Below are positions 2,502 to 20,400 of a DNA stretch of 64,000 nt, piece by piece. The notes beneath the pieces were generated by a model. It searched no databases, was not told the origin of the DNA, and saw only the letters and a program-made list of their open reading frames with translations. Source of the DNA: Rhododendron vialii (Eukaryota > Streptophyta > Magnoliopsida > Ericales > Ericaceae); NCBI RefSeq assembly GCF_030253575.1, contig NC_080569.1, forward strand, positions 21,574,001 through 21,638,000, read 5' to 3'. Positions within the stretch are counted from its first letter, which is position 1, and each line of letters opens with the position of its first letter. The position numbers were made by a program, and so were the translations under genes.

Positions 2502-5500
2502 ATGGATTCACAAAGCCAAAACACTTCCCTGCAACGACTCCAAAATGTTGAAAAGGTATAAGTATTCCCAATTTCTTCTTCCAATTTAGTTTTAAAAACT
2601 CAGAAAGAATCACGCATTTGTCGTATCAGGGTTTTGTGTTGTGTTGGGTAAAGTCATATTCGCGATTTGTTATGGATTTTTACAGACAATTGTTAGGGTT
2701 TTGGAACTGGCTGGAGGAGTGACCGACGAACTTTCAAACCCTAGCGGTCCCAGGAAGGATTTGGTCAACAAACACTGCGCCGAGTTCATGCAATCAATCA
2801 AGGTATAGATTTGTTTTTAAAAACAAGTTCAATGTAGCAGTTTGGAAAGAAATGTTTAGTTGTAGTTGGAAGTAAATCTTACTAGGAATCTTATTTGTTC
2901 TTCTTCTGCCAAGCTAGTCTGCTTGTGCTCTTAGTTACGAATTTCAGATTCCTATTTGGCTTCAGTTACCTGTATAAGATTGGTACTTGCGAATACTATT
3001 GATCTGAAGATGGAAGATTGTTTGCGCTGAATTGCCTTCTTCTGTAGCCTTTTTTTTGGGTGATAAAGATGCGATATTCTATTAAATAAATGAAATGTTT
3101 GCGATTAGGAAAGGCATAACTAGACTAGGGATCGCTTCCTTCCATACGTATTTGGGTTGCCCAATTCTCCATGAGAGACCTAGTAAACAGGCCTTTCGGT
3201 GCTTGGTTGATAAGGTTTCTAGAAAGTTAGCTGGTTAGAAAGGTAAATGCTTACTGTTGGCTGGTTGCAGCACTCTTATTAAATCCGTGAATTCGGCTAT
3301 CCCTTGTTACATTGGTCAGTCCTTTGTTTTTCTTAAATCCATCACCAATAGTCTGGATGGGATTAATCGCATTTTCTTGTGGGGTTCTAACGCTGAGAAA
3401 AGAAAGCTCTACGCTGTGGGTTGGGACAAAGTGACTAGACCTAAGCACTTGGTGGTTTTGGCCTTTTGGGTATTCGGTTTCCTGGGGCTGCTAATGAAGT
3501 GGCTTTTGCTAATCTTAATTGACGGGTTAATAGGGAGAGTGAGCCCTTATAGGGTTTTGAAAGATAAGTATCGGGATTTTTCTGGAAAAAAACACAAACC
3601 TTCTCCTATTTGGCGTATCCTTTGAAGAGGGTATGGCCTGTATCACCAAGGTTTACATGTCTCTATTACAGGGGGTAGAAATACCTCCTTTTGGTTTGAC
3701 AATTGGTTAGGTATTGGCCCTCTGCGTAACATCATTGCTGGCCCCCTTAATGTTTTGGCCTGCTCCCTCTCTGTTTGGGATGTTTGGGCTTTGGGTGTTT
3801 GGAATTTGGATGTTTCTGGTATGGTTTTCCAAGAACTCTTATTCTAGGTCAAACCCTTCAATGGTTTAATGATACCTGATGTGAAAGTTTGGAACTCGTC
3901 CAGTGGTCTTTTTCTAGTAAGTCGGCTTATCGGCTCATTTGTAGCGATACATGCACTCCTCCTTTTGATAATTGGAGCGGGATTTGGAAAGTCCCTACGA
4001 TTCCTAGAGTTTCCCACTTCCTAGCTACTAAGGATTATCTCTGCTTTAGACATATTGCCACTGATAATGTCTGCTGTATTTGCTCTGATATGATTGAATC
4101 TACTCTTCATGTCTTATGCGATTGCCCGAATGCCCTGCTATTCTGGCATTCCCTCTCCATATCAGATTTTTTCCCTAATATTTTCTCTACCACTGTCCCT
4201 TTCCATTCTTGGCTTCACCATCACTGCAAATCTATTGCCTTTCACTCTTCTGGTGTCCCATGGTCTTGTCTTTTTCCTTTTGCTTGTTTGGCTATCTGGT
4301 GTAATAGGAACCGACTCCTATTCCGTGAGAATTCATTACCTAATTCGTTGGTCTCAGGTCCCATTCTTGATAAACCTTTTTCAAGTCATTAGGAGTGGCT
4401 GGCGCGGTGGAATGGCACTTCATTTGCTTCCCTACTCGTAGATTGTCTAGTGCTAATCACATTAGAGTGGGCTGGAAACCCCCTTCAATGGGGAGTTTTA
4501 AGCTGAATACAGATGGTGCTGTAGGGGAATCAGGTAATTCAGCAGCCGGGGGCATTATCCGTGACTGGAATGGTCTTTGCATTCGAGGGTTCCAACGGAA
4601 TATGGGAATGGTATAAGTTCTAGGCTTCTAGCTGCTAGTTATGGGCTCTTAGGGATGGTTTACAACTGGGAGTGGATTTAAACACTCAAAGCATTGATGT
4701 TGAACTGTTGAAGTGGATGCATTAGCACTTATCCATCTGGTGAAAGAGCAGAATTGTGATCACATCCATTGAATAGCTTATCTCTGATTGCAGATTTCTA
4801 CTTCAGAAATTCCCGGCAGCATCTATAAACCATGTGTTCCGCAAAGCAAACTATTGCCCAGATGGATTAGCAAAGGATGCATTAAGCATGGCAGTAGGAT
4901 TTACTAGTTTCAGTTCAATTTCTGGTGTTATTTTAGTTCATTTCTGTAATGACTATGTAGGGGTCTCATACCCCAGAACTTTGTTTGTACTATGCATCTC
5001 CAGTTTACCACAAAAAGAAATAAAATAAGGTCCATCTAGGCACTGTTTTACCACCCCAAGTCATCTTACACCAGTCCTTAATTGGGTATCTATGTCGAAT
5101 AAGAGCCTCTAGGGATGGCAAAGGGTAGTGTTTCGCCATACCCTGACACGACCCTAAAAATACCACCCCGCCCGGACCTCAACCAGGTAATGTGTGGGTA
5201 ACCCCGTTCCCCTGTCGGTTTTAAACCTGCCCGTAAATTATAGAAAGTGGAAAAAAATTGTTTGACTTAGAAGCAAATGGGAGAAAATGTGTTAATATAT
5301 AGGGTGGTATTTTAGAAATAAGGGTGAAAATACAAGGGTAAATATATGGTTTATATTCTAAACAATCCCGGGGCGGGGTAACATCATCCCGAACCCCAAT
5401 CGAAAACATATCGGGGGTTTTAATTCCCCCCGAACCCAACCCAGTACCCAAAATTTTGACGGGAGGCCCCGATGGGGCAGAGTTGGGGTGGGCGGGACCA

Positions 5501-8429
5501 ATTGCCTAGCCTAATGGCTCTAACATTATCCCAGGCAGAACAAACAGTAAGTTTTCCACCGCAATGAGGCAACCACCATATCTTCCTTACTAGTTTCACG
5601 CAGTAGAATAGATGGAGTTTGGGCAATGATGTCTCGAATAGTCTATAAGTATGGATGTAATCTTTCTTTCCAACACAGAGTTGATTAATGAATTGAGTTT
5701 ACAAGGCTGAGGCCATTGGTTTGGGCTGCGGTCCTTCCTTGCAGAAACCACCTAATCCTGCAGAGGTTGAAACACTTCTATCTCTCTTTCTCTCTCTTCT
5801 TCTTCTCATTCTTTCATTTCTTCTTCTTGCGCACTTATCCAAGTAATATTCTTAGTTCCCCACCCAAAACCACCGCGATTCTTATTGTAGGCTACCACTC
5901 TGAGTGTCCTAAAACCGTCCTACATCATGCACCCACTTTATCCTCAAGTGTCAGCCTTCACACACAAGGCCTACAAAAGTCTCATCATAGTAGCTTTGTG
6001 TATGTTGCACTCTTTAATTCTTCTAAAACCTAGTCCTCCTTCGTCCTTTGGGCTGCAGATTTGGTCCCAACTGATTTTGGCCCCAGTGTGCTTCAAAGCT
6101 GAACCTGACGAAAGGAAAGCCATAAGAGTGTTCTCCACATCCTTTACCCTTACCCTTACGTAGACCTATCGATGCACTAACGACATCTAAAGCTGGGAAA
6201 TCAACCTTGTAATTACCCCCCATTTCGTCCATTTTGTCCGTTCTAGAGTTTCTAGGAGTAGGTGAAAACCTCTGGATACAAAAACCAGCTGTATATATGT
6301 GTTCACCATCATTAGGGCTTGCATCTTTTTGTTTATTCATGCATTTGTGGTTTCCTAGTCAATTTGTATATAGCTTGTCTGAGTGATCTCATTGTGTCTT
6401 AAACACTTGGTGCTTGTTGGATGCCATTATGACTTACTAAGATTTTTGGCATGCTGATTTTGGATTATCATACTCTATGAAGCACCGACACTCCTAACTA
6501 CTTGTTGCATCCGTGTCGGAGACTTCGGCGATACGCAACACTTCGGGGTCACGTATAGGCAATGTTTTGAAAACCGGACCGGTGAGCAAACCAGAATAGG
6601 GACCGGGCAGATAGGTCACCGGTTCAACCATGGTCGAACCGGAATCGAACTGTGATGTCATAATATGTCAAAAATATAATATATTAAAAATATATAATTA
6701 AAATGAGCATATAAAAAATAAATGTACAGAAAAAATATAGGTATTCTTTATTATTTAGAGTGAAAAGATGAGGAGTTGAGTTAATGCATTCTGGATATGT
6801 TTTGCTCCAATCCCACATCGGTGAGATGGAGAACTAGTAAAGACTTTTGGTCTATAAATGCTTCACAAGGCCGAGACATAATTACGCAGAGGACGTGGGG
6901 TCATTTATGCTTCACACGCACCAGCTGCACCACTGAAGTGAGGCAGTGATGCTAAAAGATTTAGTTCAAAAAAAATTCAGTTCGGTTCATTGAACCCGCT
7001 CCCGGTTCTCTGGGTTGGCGGTTCAACCTCTCGGTTTGAACGGTTCTCAATTTAGGGGCCGGTTCTCAGAACAAAGCGGTTTTGGGGTTCATCCGAACCG
7101 GAGCAAGGTCCGGTTGACGGGTCAACCGGTCGAACCAGCCAGTCTGGCCCAGTTTTTTAAACATTTCGAATAAGACATGCCATGTGGCGTGTCCAATAAA
7201 TCTAATTATTTTTAAGCAGGGGACATTTTGGACACCTATGTCTCAACTTGGACATGGATGGAAATATGACAGGAATCAATTAAATATTGAAGGCTTGTTT
7301 TGGGGTTATGATATGAAAAAAGTACGAATAAGTTCATTTTGACCTAATAAAACCCTCGTTTAACTTTTATAAGAAAGGAAACAATAACAATTGTCGAAAT
7401 TAACTCGATTTGGATCTAATAAAACCCTCCACACTCCGGCGACATGCGACAAGCTGGGGACACATATGGGACAAGCCACGTGGTTTGTCCAAATAAATCT
7501 AATTATTTTTAAGTAGGGGACATACTGGGACACCCATGTTAAACTTGGACAGTTGGACACGGATGGAAATATGACACGAATCAATTCCTAATATTGAAAC
7601 TTTGAAAGCTTGTTTTGGGGTTATGATATGAAAATAGTACGAATAAGTTTATTTTGACCTAATAAAGCCCTCGTTTAGCTTGTATATTTAAAAGGAAGTA
7701 ATAATAACTGTCAAAATTAACTGGATTTTGATCTAATAAAACCCTCAACACTCTAGTGACACACGACACGCCGGGGACACGTATGGGACACGCCACATGG
7801 TGTGTCCAATAAATCGAATTACTTTTAAATAAGGGATATATTGGGACACCCGTGTCTAAACTTTGACACAAATTGAAATATGACAGGAATCAATTCATGT
7901 TGAAAGCTTATTTTGGGGTTATGATATGAAAAAAGTACGAATAAGTCAATTTTGACCTGGTAAAACCCTCGTTTAACTTGTGTATTTAGAAAGCAAACAA
8001 AAACAACTAGAAAAATACGATTAGTTTTAGTTGTTTCCGGATAGAATGTTCATCCGATTAAGTACTAACAACTAAATATCTATCCGAATTTGTATACATG
8101 TTTTTATCCGTGTTCGTCTCCCCATTTATTTAGAATTGCCGTGTCCGTGTCCGTTTTCGTGTTTGTGTTTGTATCCGTGCTTCTTAGATCATACTGCTAG
8201 TTATGTTGGAGACCTAAACAAGTGGAAACTGTGTTTTTATGCGTGAAATCAGGACATCCAAGTGACACTGCGTGAAGAAATCAAAAGTGCATGTGAATAC
8301 CGGCCTTTTGAGAAGTGTGATTACATTGCAAGAATCTCGAATGAGATCTGTTGTGAGAAACTGGAATATGTTATTTCAGAGTTGGATGGGATGAAGAAAA
8401 CCATTGATGAACATCACAGTGCTTCTTGA
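2502..8429 (+). CDS. MED11: Mediator of RNA polymerase II transcription subunit 11
   Basis: Three exons, at 2502-2555, 2686-2802 and 8253-8429, join in frame to a 115-residue protein. It begins MDSQSQNTSLQRLQNVEK, has LAGGVTDEL in exon 2 and DIQVTLREEIKSACEYRPFE in exon 3. The length and these conserved blocks match plant MED11. Both introns are GT-AG and both junctions fall between codons. MED11 is a small helical subunit of the Mediator head module in the nucleus; in characterised systems it pairs with MED22 and helps recruit general transcription factors. The start is the only ATG giving the conserved N-terminus. Intron 2 is 5,450 bp and filled with transposons, while intron 1 is only 130 bp. 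There are no internal stops, so the gene looks functional if the long intron is spliced. Confidence 0.93.
3110..5030 (+). mobile_element. Degraded LINE (L1-type) fragment in MED11 intron 2
   Basis: The translation is broken by stops and frameshifts but keeps the usual order of a plant L1-type ORF2 C-terminus. The RT tail contains LIKSVNSAIPCYIGQS and INRIFLWG (about 3180-3625). A zf-RVT-like region has DNWSGIWKVPTIPRVSHF, then Cys pairs and a final CPNALLFW (about 3950-4160). An RNase H start has WKPPSMGSFKLNTDGA (about 4470-4600), followed by ANYCPDGLAKDAL (about 4840-4890). The end is A-rich near 5015-5028. The element is on the host gene's strand, 5'-truncated and not mobile. Confidence 0.85.
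5110..5513. mobile_element. GC-rich hAT-type MITE in MED11 intron 2
   Basis: The block starts TAGGGATGGCAA and, read from its other end, starts TAGGCTAGGCAA. The inside is full of CCCCG and GGGCGGG motifs in inverted arrangement, in an otherwise AT-rich intron. This is the known 'GGGATGGCAA' plant MITE style. No clear 8-bp duplication was found, so the ends are approximate. Confidence 0.5.
5514..6466. other. MED11 intron 2 stretch without recognisable features
   Basis: This unique-looking intron sequence has a CT-rich tract near 5778-5830. Several short open frames occur on both strands but none resembles a known protein. Confidence 0.4.
6560..7166. mobile_element. Nested MITE (AACCGG-rich family) inside the hAT-like element
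   Basis: The left end is CAATGTTTTGAAAACCGG and the right end, reverse-complemented, is AAATGTTTAAAAAACTGG. The flanks CGTATAGG (6552-6559) and CGAATAAG (7167-7174) match at 6 of 8 positions, a decayed 8-bp target duplication. It interrupts the first of the three internal repeat units of the outer element, which otherwise joins cleanly across it. So the outer element is the older one. Confidence 0.7.
7175..7975. repeat. Three diverged tandem units of about 300 bp inside the hAT-like element
   Basis: Each unit contains, in order, GTCCAATAAATC (or a close variant), a GACACCCATG-like stretch, TTTTGGGGTTATGATATGAA, GTACGAATAAGT, TTTTGACCT and CCCTCGTTTA. The anchors fall near 7190, 7487 and 7803, giving spacings of about 297 and 315 bp. 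The first unit is interrupted at its start by the nested MITE. Confidence 0.8.
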
Positions 8430-11450: not shown

Positions 11451-14400
11451 ATGAAGTCGTCGTCCCCTTCCCTATTACTACTACTCGCCAAACCAATTGC
11501 TGTGATAGCCGTCACCGTCGGCAGCACCGTTGTCTTTGTACTACTACTCTCTCAACCCCAAAACCCGCCTTCACCTTCAACTCCTCCTTCTCTATCGCAA
11601 GACTCGATGGCTCGAAGCTTCGTTCTGTGGCTTCACGGGTTGGGCGACTCCGGTCCAGCCAACGAACCCATCAAGACCCTATTCACTTCTCCCGAGTTCA
11701 GAAACACCCGTTGGTCCTTCCCTTCTGCTCCTTCCCAGCCCGTCACTTGCAACAGTAAGCCTAACTTCATTTGATCTTCTGGATATACGCATTTATGTGT
11801 GCTTTATCATATGTGTTGCGATTTGAGTCCATGAGATGGGTTTCGATTGTGTTTTGTATCTGGTTCCTGTTGTGGAAAAAGGGGATTTGATCATTTGCAG
11901 GGTCGGCTTTACTATCAGATGAGGGGTTCAAGCGAACCTTCTGGGTTTAAAAAAAGTACTAAAATTTTGGATTTTTAATATATAATTTGGAATTTTTTAA
12001 TATTGTCTGCACTGGGTTGTTAGTACGTACTAGGATTGCTCATGGTCCAGATCCGATTCCGATAATCTAATCCTAATCCGCGGTTCACGGTTCTTAGATT
12101 GATAATAAAAAGTATATTTCATTAGAAACGTATTTATTGTTACTTGCAAGGTCGCGGAAGAGACTAGTTGTGTGTAAGTATGTAGGTGTTTTCAAATTGG
12201 GAAACGTATCGCGTATTGTAAAATACGTTAACAAAGCTAATATACAATAAAATAATAGGTATACGTAGTTACAATCTAAGAATCTGTTGTATATATGCAA
12301 AATAGGTTTTTAGTATTAAAAAATTCCAAAGTCTCCCAGGTAGGGTTTATCACATTGAGACTTTCTGGTGCCTAGGTCAAGGGAAGAAAAGAAGAACCCT
12401 TATCTGATTTTTGCAAAAATGTGATCAAAACATGTCCTTTTTTTTTTTTTTTGATAAGTAAAGAGTTCAAAAGGCAATAGTGGAGGACGAGATCAAAATA
12501 CGTCTTTCCTCTATTCGAGATATGAGTTTTGTTTTTTTGTTTTTAAATAGTTTGGATACCGCCATAATTAGATCAAATGATTTATTTGATAATTAGATCA
12601 AATGATTTATTTGATTCAGGACGCATTTAGAGTTACGCTTCTTAAAATATGGTATGAATTTTTCTCAATAAGGAATTGTAGGATACATTCCAAATTGGGA
12701 TACACGAATATATCGTAAGATACGTTATCGTATCGTAAGACTTCTATACAAAAAGGATATGGGGTGCAATACTTATTGTATTTGGAAGGAGACGATACAA
12801 ATCGTAGGATACGTATCCCGTATCATAGGATTTTAACAACCATGCCAGTTAATATTATACACGCAGACAAAATATGGTTGTGTTTATACCCGTTTTTGGC
12901 ACCATGGCCATTTAATTATTTATTTAATTAAATTGGGCCAGGATCATATGTTTGTTGGATTAAAAGTTTATTGGGCTGTGGTTTGTAATATGCTTGAGCC
13001 CAATTACTTGTTCAAAGACAAATCACAACCCATAGAAGATGGGGCCTATTTCGGACGTGGATACAGCCTAAAAATCTAGGAGGCAATTATTTCTCCTCCA
13101 TTCATTTCAAAGGCCATTGACTGAGTCTAATGGCCCCATGTCAAAACATTTGCACGAAAAGAGGAAGTGGGGCAGCTATTCAATCAACCCATGATCAAGT
13201 TCAACCTCTGCAAGCTACCTGTAACTGCCGTAGTGGAGAGTTAATTTAGGAACATGGGACACTTGGCAGCTTGTGGTGAAGGCCGGAGAAACCATTCAGA
13301 CCTGGACCACCTTGTTGGTTGTCTATAAATACTAGTTTCAACGAGGAAAAAAGGGTACAACACCAATTAAGCCCAGTGCTTCAAAAACTTTCCTACTTTC
13401 AGCAAAGTAGACATATCCGGATACCTTGTACTCAACCCCATTCAACTTCAAGTAGTTTGGATTTTACTTGTACCCACAACTTTATTATTCTGCTATAATA
13501 AAGTCTACGTTTTACGTTCCATTTCCTATACGACTAGGAAATTCTAAGTCCACAACCGTGTGGCAAATCACGAACCAACTTGTGATCTTTACCCTTTGGA
13601 TCACACGCAATCGCTTTACGAATTAGAAGTCAAGATTCACGGCAATCTTCATTCGAAGTTAGGCGCTACAAGTCTTGGCATGCCTACACTCTATGAACCA
13701 ACGCTTGCAAACGTATTCGCGCCTTGCACAGCGTACGTGTGTCAAAAACGAGAGTTTTCATTGGCACGCTAGGTCTGAATGGTTTCTCCGGCCTTCATCA
13801 CAAGTTGTCAAGTGTCCCATATTCCTAAATTAACTCCCCACTACGGCAGTTACGAGCAGCTTGCAGAGGTTGAACTTGATCATGGGTTGATTGAATAACT
13901 GCCCCACTTCCTCTTTCCGTGCAAATGTTTTGACATGGGGCCATTTGACTCAGTCAATGGCCTTTGAAATGGATGGAGGAGAAATAACTGCCTCATAGAT
14001 TTTTGGGCTGTATCCACATCCAAAAAAAGCTCCATCTTCTATGGGTTGTGATTTGTCTTTGAACAAGTTATTGGGCCCAAGCATATTACAAAACCACGGC
14101 CCAGTAAACTTTTAATCTAACAAACATATGATCCTAGCCCAATTTAATTAAATAAATAATTAAATGGCCCTTCATTGCTAGCCCGATCTGTGGTGCCACA
14201 TTGCCACCCCCCACCCAATACGCCTTGATTATTTTAAGATAAAGGCGTGGAAGACACTTTAGTTTTTTGGCATTCCAAACAAACCTTAACGCTTCGTATA
14301 ATCAAATTTTAGGCCCCAAACACGGCCTAACATCTTTTCCTTTTTCAAATTGGCCATGTAATGAGATCTTTGCATGGGGATATTATCTCTAAAGGCAGAC

Positions 14401-17400
14401 TCCATTCTCCTTGGGACTCCAAAGCTTTCTGAAGATTCCTTCCACAGTCCATTATTCCTTTTTCGGGCCTATGTAACACGTGTAACCCTTTCTCAGAGTC
14501 CCATTCTGTTCCATTGCACAGAAAATAACCCATCTCTCTCGGGATAAAAATCAAATTTCAAAAAAGGAAGAGGAGGTGGTTCATATCCCAAGATTTTTTA
14601 ACTTGCTACCCATCATTAGCATACTTTAAATACCCACTTCTCTTTCTTCCTTCATCACTTTTCCTTTTCCTCTTAGAGCCAAGAAAACCCTAAACTGCCA
14701 TTTTTCAAACTTCAAACAATGGCGTCGTTCAGAGCTAAATGTATTGTCAAGAGCCAAACAACCCTTTCTATTGAAATCAAACGCATCCTTAAGTCTGAAA
14801 ACCTCTCCATTAACTCCGAGATCTTGATTGATCGATCCCAGCAACGGTCATCCGTGATCAAGATAGGATTAGGGCCTTCTTTCCATGGTGATTTCCCGGA
14901 ACATCTCCTTCCCTTCTACCCTCTCGCAGAAGAGGCCTTGCCATTCGACTACATAACTCCCGATTGGACTGTGTACCCCAAGGACATACCAAATCGGCTT
15001 TGGCACAAGCTTGACAAGCAATGTGTTCAATGGGTTAACCAAGTTGCAGCCGTGAAAGGAGGACTGTGGAAAGATGTAGGAATCTATGAAGCCATCATGC
15101 TCAGCCGCCATCTCATCGACATGGACAAGGCCCTATTCATGGCCGCGGCCCAGTTCTGGTCTGTATCTTCCAACGCCTTTCATTTTCGTGTAGGTATGAT
15201 GGGCATTACTGTTCAAGATGTTTCTTTTCTCACAGGCCTTCGCCCACATGGGGTAAGGGCCGACTGCTTTATGTCTCAAAAAACTCCATCTTTCACATAT
15301 CCTGAATTGGTCCAACTTGCTTTCTCTAACTTTTTGAACTATTTTGCCGGCAAAGAGGGAGAGGAAGTCACTGAGGAAGAACATGTGGCTCTTCTCATTT
15401 ATTGGTTGAACAAATGTGTGTTTTGTTTGTCTTCCAATAGGATCACCAAAGAGTTTACCGATATAGCCAAGACCTTAGCTTCGGGCCAGAAATTAGCCCT
15501 AGCTCCATTAGTCCTCACACATTTGTATCGTGGTATGCAAGATTGTTAACCAATAAGTTTGTTTTTGCTCCTAGCCCCCTTTGGATTGTTGCTCTCTAGC
15601 TCTGGTCATATTTCCCATCTTTGGCCCCTAAAATGAACAAAATTCCCACTCACGCGTGTTACGGCCGTCACTATGCAGGCCAAGAACTGTAGCAGCATGA
15701 CTTTGATTTCTGATTCAATTACTTTTACTGCGACCTAACCACATTAGGCAAGGGCTATATTCGATTTGAAAGAGATATTGGGCCCTTGTGGTTGAAAACC
15801 CCAACCGCGGATCCCATTTTTGGCAAGGGCTAGCAATGAAGGGCCATTTAATTATTTATTTAATTAAATTGGGCCAGGATCATATGTTGGATTAAAAGTT
15901 TATTGGGCCGTGGTTTTGTAATATGCTTGGGTCCAATTACTTGTTCAAAGACAAATCACAACCCATAGAAGATGGGGCCTATTTCGGACGTGGATACAGC
16001 CCAAAATCAGGAGGCAGTTATATCTCCTCCATTCATTTCAAAGACCATTGACTGAGTCAAATGGCCCCATGTCAAAACATTTGCATGAAAAGAGGAAGTG
16101 GGGCAGTTATTCCATCAACCCATGATCAAGTTCAACCTCTACAAGCTGCTTGTAACTGTTGTAGTGGGGAGTTAATTTAGGAACATGGGACACTTGGCAG
16201 CTTGTGGTGAAAGCCGAAGAAACCATTCAGACCTGGACCAGCTTGTTGGTTGTCTATAAATACTAGTTTCAACGAGGAAAAAAGGATCCAGCACCAATTA
16301 AGCCCAGCGCTTCAAAAACTTTCCTACTTTCAGCAAAGTAGATATATCCGAGTACCTTGTACTCAACCCCATTCAACTTACTTCACGTAATTTGGATTTT
16401 ACTTTTACTTGTACCCACAAGTCCACAACTTTATTATTCCGATATAATAAAGTCTACGTATTACGTTCTATTTCCTATACGACTTGGAAATTCTAAGTCC
16501 ACAACCGTGTGGCAAATCACGAACCAACTTGTGATCTTTACCCTTTGGATCACACACAATCGCTTTACGGGTTAGAAGTCAAGGTTCACTGCAATCTTCA
16601 TCCAAAGTTAGGTGCTACAAGTCTTGGTATGCCCGCACTCTATCAACCAACGCTTGCAAACGCATTCGCGCCTTGCATGGCCTACTTGTGTCAAAAACGA
16701 GAGTTTTCAGGTTGATAACTTGAAATTTTAGGGATTTTTTTCCTCAAATATATAGCAATTTTAAGAATTTTTTTCCCATGCAAGGGACTTGCAGGGGCAA
16801 TCCCATAGAACATTTAAGTTATTCTGCAAAACTAGTATATTATGTGGGAATATTTGGAGTTGTGCAGGGGCCGTCTTATCTGAACCCCTCTGGTATGGGA
16901 AATATGCTTGCTTCACATGTATTTCCCGAATGTAGGGTTCCTACAGACGCGTTGTTCAAAGCTTCATCGCTTTCATTCATAGGGACAAAGGAAAGAAAGC
17001 GTAATTCAATTCAGAATAACTTCTTGCTCCGGTTTGCCGGCCTATAAGATCTCTGAGATTGACCGGCCAGCTGGGTTGGTTTGGCTATTCTTTTCTATTG
17101 AAAAGGAGTCAGCTAGGTATAGGCTAATTGGTAACGATTGAAGAGGACAAATTGGCTTACGATAGGTTAGCGCCCTTTCTCCTTTTAAGAAAGGGTAAGC
17201 TTTTCAGCCGTAGCTTGCTGGGTTTTCCTTAAGAAAAGTCAAAAGTGGTGGGGCTACAAAACACAAGCTAGAGAGAGTACTTTAAAAGCAATGGTATACG
17301 AATTCTTGGGTCCAAGTAACATTGCAAAGGCATAATGATAGTTGGGTAGTCAATATAGAGCAATTCCGGAGTTGTGCAATTCACATTTCCAGGCAAATAG

Positions 17401-20400
17401 GGGGCGGCAACTAAAGAGGTAGCGAGACTGACCACTGTTGGTCATATTTCTCTTTATCAAGAAATCGAAGAAGCCATAAAAGTCGGGCCTTTCAATTAAT
17501 CTTTCTCTCGTACTAGTACCTAACTCCGCTTGGTCAGCCTGAAAAGAAGCCGACAACCCCTTGTGTGCGCCTCTATCACCTGTGTTCCCTTTATAACAGT
17601 AATAAATGATATATGAGATTGTGTTTCATATCTGGTTCGTGTGGTGGAAAGAATGATATTGATCATTTGGGTTGTGTTGTTGGAGAATATAATTATTGAT
17701 TTTGTTGTTTTTTCCTCGTGGTGTGTAGGGCATACTACTCCCTTGTGGATTTGGAATAACTTATTGTTTTTATAGACGAGGAAATTCTGCGTTGGGTGCT
17801 AATAGGCTTTCTTTTTATGATTGTGATTTGCGCTAATGTAGTTGGATGTTTTGGAAGTATTAAAAACAAATTTCAATATGGGGGAAGAATTACAAGATCT
17901 AGTAATTCACTTCATGGCACTTCCTAGGACTTTTCATGTCGCGCAGGGGAGAAGGATCATATGCTACTTGTTGATGAGGAGTCCCAACCAAGAAAATGAC
18001 CGAAATCACAGTGAGTCCAAGATCTACAACAGAGAACACCACTAGTCCCATAGTGCATTTGTTGAGATCAAATAGTTTTCTTTACACTACTGTGAGGTTG
18101 TGATTCCAATCTGAGTCCTCGCTTGAGCCTCTGGTCCGGAGATCCTACTAGCCTAGCTCCGTTGTCCTGACCTGCACCGGTGACGCCCATCAATAGTGCC
18201 CAAACCGGTCGGAGTCGACTGGCAAGGCACTCTGATGGTTAAGTAAGCAAGTGAAAGAGGAGAGGAAAGTACAGAGCGTTTAGAGTGAGTGAAAATGGCG
18301 TACCCCTTCAAATTGATCCTCCTCCTTTATATAGTACTCCAAGACTTGCTCTCCAAGTAAGCGCGTGACCATCACGCTCGGTAACCTCTCCAGCCAATGT
18401 CACAACTGACATATTGGATAAGGCAGTTATTGCCCATGTGCATGAGCTTTCATCCGCATGTGCTCGTGCCCAACTCGTGCGGTAACCGTTTGGCTAACGT
18501 CACAACTGACGTATAGAGTAAGGCGGCTAGGTGCACCTAGGTGAGCTGGCACATATGAGTTTGGCCGAACCTCAAGTGTCTGAACCATACAGAGTGTCGA
18601 TACCGTTGAGTCAATAGGTTGGACTTGCTTGTCCAAGCTTGGATAGTACCAATCCCCATTGGCCGAACCTCATTTACTCGGTCCGGGGTTCAGCTTGAAC
18701 TAATAGATCAAGAGGTTGAACCCAACCATTGGCCGAGCATAGTGAACTGTCCGAACCATCTCATTCGGCCCACTACAACTATCTATGAGAGAAATAGCCA
18801 ACGGGAACAAGAAATTCTAGTTTAGAAAAACAAAGCCAATGTGTTCCAAATACTTCCAATTATCCAATTGTAGTGATCAACTTGCCTTGGTTGATCTTGC
18901 ATCATGATGTACCTTCCTTCGAACACGAGTGCCAGGCAGTTTGATTACGTTATTTTTGGCTCTTTGTACCCTTGAGTTTTCATCTCAATCAGCTTATCCA
19001 ATGCAAGGATAAAGACACTTCTTGGGTGATCCATCCAACAACAAGGCATTCGTATAGTCAACAACATTGAGCCTTTAAAAAAAAAAATATAGTCGACAGC
19101 ATTGAGTCGGAATGCTTAGTTTCCTAGTGAATACATTCTATTCTCTCTTTTTATGCAATTCCAGACCATGTACTTATCCGTTTCTTTTGCAGATGGTGCT
19201 GTGATGCCCTCGTGGTTTGATCTTCATGAAATACCAATTACGGCTGTAAGTTACGCTTATTTTTTCCCCCAGAAAAAGTAGCCTTTTTTATCCTTCTTGT
19301 GGATTAACTTTTGGGGGCATCTTCCCATAAGTTGGATTAGATTTGCATGTCAGTGGGTTGGGAAATGAGACATCAGTCATGGGAACGATGTCAACCCTTA
19401 AGTGTATGTATGGTGGGGAAATATATGTTATAGTGATTTCCTTGATACTTGTATGAGTTGGAATGTCTACTCAGTATCCTTCCCCTTTCATCTCTTGTTG
19501 ATTTGAAATTTATTTCAAACTGAGATTTATTTTTGTATGACTGACTCTGACTAGGCTTTGTGATGGTGCTTAAACAGATTTCTTGGTTCTCGAATATAGT
19601 TTACAGTTGCTCACTACGTATACAGTTCCATTCAATTTTGCTAAATCACTTATGACATGGTGAACACATGGAAGGTGTTTGTGAGATAACGTGGTATTGT
19701 AACAGTGCCCTTCGATTAACTAGCTGTGCTGGATTTCGAAAATGTATCAGGTTTCTCCAAATGATGAAAATGGTGTCCTTAAAGCAGTTCGGAACGTGCA
19801 TAACATTATAGACAAGGAGATAACTGCTGGCACAAATCCTGACAATATATTTGTATGTGGATTTAGTCAAGGAGGTCTCTCTCTCTCTCTCTCTCTCTCA
19901 GGGCGCTCGTGTGCCTGAAAGAGTTTCTGCATGCTTGTTTTGATTCCTGCAGGTAATTAGTGAATAGTAATCATGTTTTGCAGGGGCCTTGACCTTAGCA
20001 AGTGTTTTGCTATACCCAAGAACTATAGGAGGAGGTGCAGTTTTCAGTGGATGGGTTCCTTTTAATTCCTCTATAATAGAGCAAATCCCGCCAGATGCAA
20101 AAAAGGTAGTTTCCTTTTAACGCCGTCTCAATCTTTCTTTGACAATCTCCCCTGCACTTTGATGAATGTGCTTTTCACCTGCATTGGTTGGGCTCCATTA
20201 TGTTAGTTATTGTAACCAACTAAGTCGAGAGTCTCAATCAATTTGGGTCGGTGCATGAATTAGTTTTCTCCATTGAGCTCTGTCGAGGCCCATGATGGAA
20301 ACTATAATGCCAAGCAAAAAAGATAATGTTAACTATAATAGAAGTTCTGCTCTCATTTTCTACTTTAGCAGCTTTATTGAGCTCTTACATCTCCAATACC

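Follow-up and report, generated by a model that had tools for sequence, protein, structure and literature searches.

A broken, inverted-end copy of a PMD-bearing Tat-clade retrotransposon in an intron of Rhododendron vialii

Plant mobile domains (PMDs) occur in more than one setting. Genic PMDs exist in plants, and the PMD-A clades are reported to be encoded by Gypsy elements only (PMC5418596). PMD is a frequent extra ORF of Ogre elements, 57% of which contain it, and a second RNase H placed between RNase H (RH) and integrase (INT) is described as the Ogre/Retand arrangement of angiosperms (PMC6317226). The antisense ORFs that Retand elements carry have been suggested to act in regulation (PMC11963269).

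The locus studied here lies in a 64,000-nucleotide stretch of the Rhododendron vialii genome (the window; C13:21574001-21638000), and the genome searched comprised 532.6 Mb in 13 contigs. Inspection by eye located six host exons, which can be spliced across GT/AG introns into a single uninterrupted frame of a carboxylesterase gene, and exon 1 matches PF02230 (E 2.8e-5); we take the product to be acyl-protein thioesterase-like. Intron 1 of this gene (7438 bp, 11755-19192, + strand) holds the insertion. A 53-bp direct repeat (81%) flanks the insertion within the same intron (11845-11897 and 17617-17669), and the segment to its left, 12513-12844, is repetitive too, another copy being present at L020:4013-4305. 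A PMD gene at its ancestral locus was ruled out, the block being enclosed by one target-site duplication (TSD) within the intron.

This duplication, GGTTG, was read at 12876-12880 on the left and at 16710-16714 on the right, which bears out the 5-bp duplication anticipated in a preliminary description of the window; with the ends set from other copies, such a match has a chance of about 1/1024. Two direct LTRs lie inside it, with the outer TG and CA present. The 5' LTR, A (TG...CA, 880 bp, 12881-13760, + strand), contains TATAAATA at 13324-13331. Its 5' end was set from other LTR copies in the genome, in which the family LTR starts with TGTTTATACCC or near it, and its start was thereby corrected to 12881 from the 12905 first given. 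The 3' LTR, C (15813-16709, + strand; alignment and letters checked), contains TATAAATA at 16255-16262 and lacks its first ~8 nt and the inner TG. Identity between A and C is 94.0% (849 ungapped columns); for a third, inverted repeat, B, the values are 93.5% (against A) and 93.6% (against C), and each of the three has a different short deletion within the first ~50 bp of the LTR. Alignment of A, B and C and a match to PF10536 confirmed that the three repeats, their orientations and the PMD frame are all real. As GGTTG is present on both outer ends, A and C belong to a single insertion, as its 5' and 3' LTR; a compound of two adjacent insertions is ruled out by the same common GGTTG. As previously suggested, the locus is a copy of an LTR retroelement, non-autonomous and rearranged, whose LTRs enclose PMD, and the TSD indicates that it was inserted as a unit.

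Other copies in the genome likewise join these LTRs to PMD. A search with the 290-aa frame of the window gave 136 PMD matches, a lower bound, as the best 135 of 1264 candidates were scored; the LTR check among them covered the window copy, the nine best matches beyond it among the candidates scored (L033-L041, 74-82% identical) and L043 (24 nt of the LTR start). In 9/9 of L033-L041, PMD is immediately preceded by a member of the same LTR family in antisense orientation, and no LTR match was found on the far side of PMD within the ~1.2 kb examined in these nine. A polypurine tract directly precedes the LTR start in eight relatives, namely L043 and seven of L033-L041. The L035 copy was read within a 9.9-kb stretch, L046. 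Here the domains of reverse transcriptase, two RNases H and integrase (RVT_1, RT_RNaseH, RVT_3 and rve) follow one another on the strand opposite to PMD, each in a frame of its own, and the other strand has a 542-aa PMD frame that covers profile positions 1-346 of 347. The second RNase H (RVT_3, PF13456, E 5e-18), which follows RT_RNaseH, is judged from its place to be of the archaeal type (aRH), so that this family copy has the aRH besides RH that characterises the Tat clade; the window copy is without pol. Its position between RH and INT fits Ogre or Retand alike. Two further ORFs of L046 (5277-5705 and 9290-9901) gave no Pfam match. Given the nine of nine close copies, the domains of L046 and the reports on Ogre and PMD-A elements (PMC6317226, PMC5418596), PMD is native to this LTR family and was not captured at the window locus.

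Exact motifs were used to look for LTR ends at ten further loci, of which four (L013, L016, L018, L019) have single LTRs with a matching 5-bp TSD. L013 holds two such LTRs, at 4027-4919 and 5010-5918, in opposite orientation and 90 bp apart, each with its own TSD (GTTAG, GTACC). At L017, L021 (a 3' LTR) and L027 the ends lacked such a match, and L020, L023 and L025 gave no pair of ends. In five short elements (L009, L010, L011, L012, L028), related LTRs stand ~3 kb from each other; the primer sites are similar, and an interior of ~2.2 kb, in which no PMD match was found, is common to all five (79-91% identity in blastn pieces). These elements form a non-autonomous subfamily. L010 has in addition a 328-aa frame and a partial reversed LTR (L010:5016-5411) ~40 bp beyond the second LTR of the short element. 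Five PMD matches of 35% identity in 567-aa stop-free frames (G000 C4:3503318, C7:8407248, C13:23756067, C11:24925873 and C13:9241232) possibly represent a young PMD family.

In the window, frame 14677-15549 matches PF10536 (E 9.4e-29) over profile positions 1-161 of 347. The PMD extra ORF, from ATG to stop (14719-15549, + strand), is broken before the end of the domain, as seen against the 542-aa frame of the relative, and an out-of-frame remainder, aligned with nine relatives, continues up to the C join (15550-15812, + strand); of the 14 best DNA matches outside the window, all but one terminate at 15798-15815. The window copy of PMD has no working frame over the whole domain. PMD is also the only ORF of at least 150 aa between the LTRs, and the gag-pol of an autonomous element is absent among ORFs of that length. 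The TATA-like TTTAAATA, earlier regarded as a start that the PMD gene had kept for itself, is not supported as a conserved TATA box, since none of the nine relatives aligned shows it at the corresponding position. The dN/dS values (14 of 45 possible pairs) are 0.064-0.101 for the window PMD against nine relatives, at a saturated dS of 1.35-1.85, and 0.14-0.38 for five relative-relative pairs; these values argue for purifying selection on PMD in the element lineage.

The arrangement of the parts is what sets the window copy apart. Its order is LTR A, a 9-bp primer site, a reversed 3' end (partial U3, polypurine tract, leader, PMD) and LTR C, whereas the family order is pol, antisense PMD, polypurine tract and 3' LTR. 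The primer-binding site and the polypurine tract are out of their normal places, the site being cut to 9 bp and the tract reversed next to B. The truncated site, TTGGCACGC (13761-13769, + strand), was recognised by comparison with the short elements: it reads TTGGCACGCC[CT]GGTGGGACC in L009 and L011, and varies in L010, L012 and L028. B (13771-14200, - strand; alignment to A and C, letters checked) is the reversed partial U3 of a 3' LTR; its end lies 20 bp away from the TATA box, and 14 nt are missing after its TG. The polypurine tract of B, ATTGGGTGGGGGGTGGCAA on the - strand (14201-14219), was identified by comparison with the same eight relatives in which a tract precedes the LTR, and is followed by the leader, from the tract to the PMD start codon (14220-14718, + strand), which blastn finds in L021 and in 8/9 of L033-L041. 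There is no polypurine tract beside C. At the PMD/C join, alignment and letters reveal a CCC (15813-15815) common to PMD and U3; at the join between primer-binding site (PBS) and B there is no clean microhomology, one base fitting neither side and being followed by an imperfect GGT. A search of the 532.6 Mb for each join, with no more than 3 mismatches in 36 and 34 bases, gave a single occurrence, a uniqueness that is not absolute, since a sibling as diverged as A is from C (~6%) could exceed 3 mismatches. Outside the window, the top two LTR matches reach 83% identity over 677 nt of the query and 86% over 537 nt, and no close LTR sibling was found there among the best 40 of 440 candidates scored, a sample that makes all LTR counts lower bounds. 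Two other interpretations of the block were rejected: a terminal-inverted-repeat (MULE-like) unit B-PMD-C, as the outer ends and the TSD belong to A and C, and autointegration, as primer-site sequence follows the CA end of A and C is without the terminal TG.

The K2P distance between A and C is 0.0631 (849 sites), which at assumed rates of 1.3e-8 and 7e-9 substitutions per site per year corresponds to an insertion age of about 2.4 and 4.5 My, respectively. Within U3, the distances are 0.0505 for A-C, 0.0693 for A-B and 0.0701 for B-C, and 392 ungapped columns contain 9 changes private to A, 12 to C and 17 to B. These private changes are compatible with a star (p 0.28) and give B an age close to that of the insertion; the excess in B (17 of 38, p 0.095) is such that it may be somewhat older. 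For B copied from C, a count of at most 9 changes in A would have p 6e-6 if the copying took place at half the insertion's age and p 0.011 if at 80% of that age; the bounds are weaker for a copy from A (p 3.7e-4 at half and 0.11 at 80% of the age). By this count of substitutions the reversal is estimated to date to about the insertion or shortly before, a dating that favours reverse transcription over later DNA repair.

From these results, we consider it likely that the locus arose by one old insertion of a defective Tat-clade Ty3/gypsy element, the 3' end of which had been reversed by template switching in reverse transcription, and that decay followed. Inside the particle, as the switches are read from the sequence, the growing minus strand would have copied U3 almost to its start and then slipped at CCC onto a template of opposite sense, either minus-strand cDNA or antisense PMD RNA, along which PMD, the leader, the polypurine tract and most of U3 would have been copied backwards. 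A jump back to the primer site would have allowed a normal LTR to be finished, and the short product would then have integrated and decayed. The CCC microhomology at the PMD/C join counts for template switching, and the joins found once, GGTTG at both ends, the nine of nine antisense LTR-PMD copies, the pol domains and PMD frame of L046 on opposite strands and the star-like private changes of U3 count for this explanation as the best one. The absence of clean microhomology at the PBS/B join counts against it, and a copying of B from A up to ~20% of the age after insertion (p 0.11) counts against dating the reversal at insertion. The extra private changes of B suggest that its template may have been a slightly different copy; further, the 5' end is complete in A while C is without the polypurine tract and the first U3 nucleotides, which calls for two templates or an unusual succession of steps. 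Template switching with inversion in LTR elements had no matching title in the literature searched, as judged by titles and the beginnings of abstracts.

Alternatively, a whole element may have been inserted and an internal DNA break later mended by microhomology-mediated template-switch repair, the 3' end on the C side being copied backwards and the rest lost. We regard this as unlikely, even though such repair can give the same order, microhomology is present at one join and a copy taken from A soon after insertion is compatible with the data: B is not younger than the split of A and C, a later copy of C predicts that A should have the most private changes, not the fewest, and the smallest U3 distance is that between A and C. 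The inverted repeat might also have existed beforehand, as a subfamily (LTR, reversed U3, PMD, LTR) that transposed as such and of which the window has one copy. The many private changes of B are what an older inversion would give, and short non-autonomous elements with related LTRs are present in the genome; however, neither join was found a second time at up to 3 mismatches, and the LTR matches outside the window, among those scored, stop at 83% and 86%. This origin, too, we hold to be unlikely, and template switching during reverse transcription is retained as the preferred account.

The inverted repeat bears on the possible transcripts of the locus. A hairpin of A and B had been proposed for the transcript, but, to judge from the place of the TATA box, RNA started there in A would begin downstream of A's U3, so that only B and C could serve as arms, with the leader and PMD as the loop. 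Read-through host pre-mRNA would hold A, B and C. The predicted cofolding energy of B and C is -699.7 kcal/mol. The 21-mers shared with the other fetched loci, which are a part of the family, number 4/403 for A, 5/415 for B and 10/399 for C, and with so few of them the silencing of other copies by the window element looks weak. It is conceivable, yet improbable, that the family's antisense PMD transcript, with a divergent start at the LTR core promoter, was reverse-transcribed in the particle, that the resulting cDNA was joined in between the LTRs as the reversed block, and that the B/C hairpin, being part of an intron that is transcribed, supplies small RNAs directed at the LTR promoter of the subfamily to which the element belongs; the stop of B 20 bp from the TATA box is offered as the basis for such a divergent antisense start. 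Mu killer of maize is a rearranged transposon whose inverted repeat could give hairpin RNA. The window element resembles it in having an inverted repeat predicted to be able to give such RNA, and differs in arms that are ~7% diverged and share few 21-mers with other fetched loci.

The capture of a host PMD gene by a retroelement, put forward in the preliminary description, is hardly credible: an open frame with a start codon does lie between the LTRs and genic PMDs are reported from plants (PMC5418596), but PMD occurs with the same family and in the same place in nine of nine close copies, and the PMD-A clades are reported from Gypsy elements only (PMC5418596; see also PMC6317226). What seemed to be gene capture is thus a trait of the family, in which PMD stands beside the 3' LTR as an extra ORF in antisense, and the locus offers a datable case of an inverted-repeat retrotransposon with a probable origin at about the time of its insertion.

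The family shares with Retand an antisense ORF between pol and the 3' LTR; 97% of the antisense-ORF clusters reported there encode Transposase_28 (PMC11963269), whereas the family of the window has PMD, and two scanned PMD-strand ORFs of L046 gave no match to Transposase_28 at E 0.01. With the Gypsy-encoded PMD-A proteins (PMC5418596) it has in common a PMD encoded by a Gypsy element, a match made by association with the LTR family; unlike theirs, the window frame is broken. The closest likeness is to Tat-clade Ty3/gypsy elements of the Ogre/Retand type with a PMD extra ORF (PMC6317226), with which the 5-bp TSD, the polypurine tract, the second RNase H between RH and INT (in L046) and the PMD extra ORF are all shared; the window copy differs in having no gag-pol and a 3' end reversed between its LTRs. 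The locus is a single, old, broken, inverted-end copy of this known kind of Tat-clade retrotransposon with its own PMD extra ORF.
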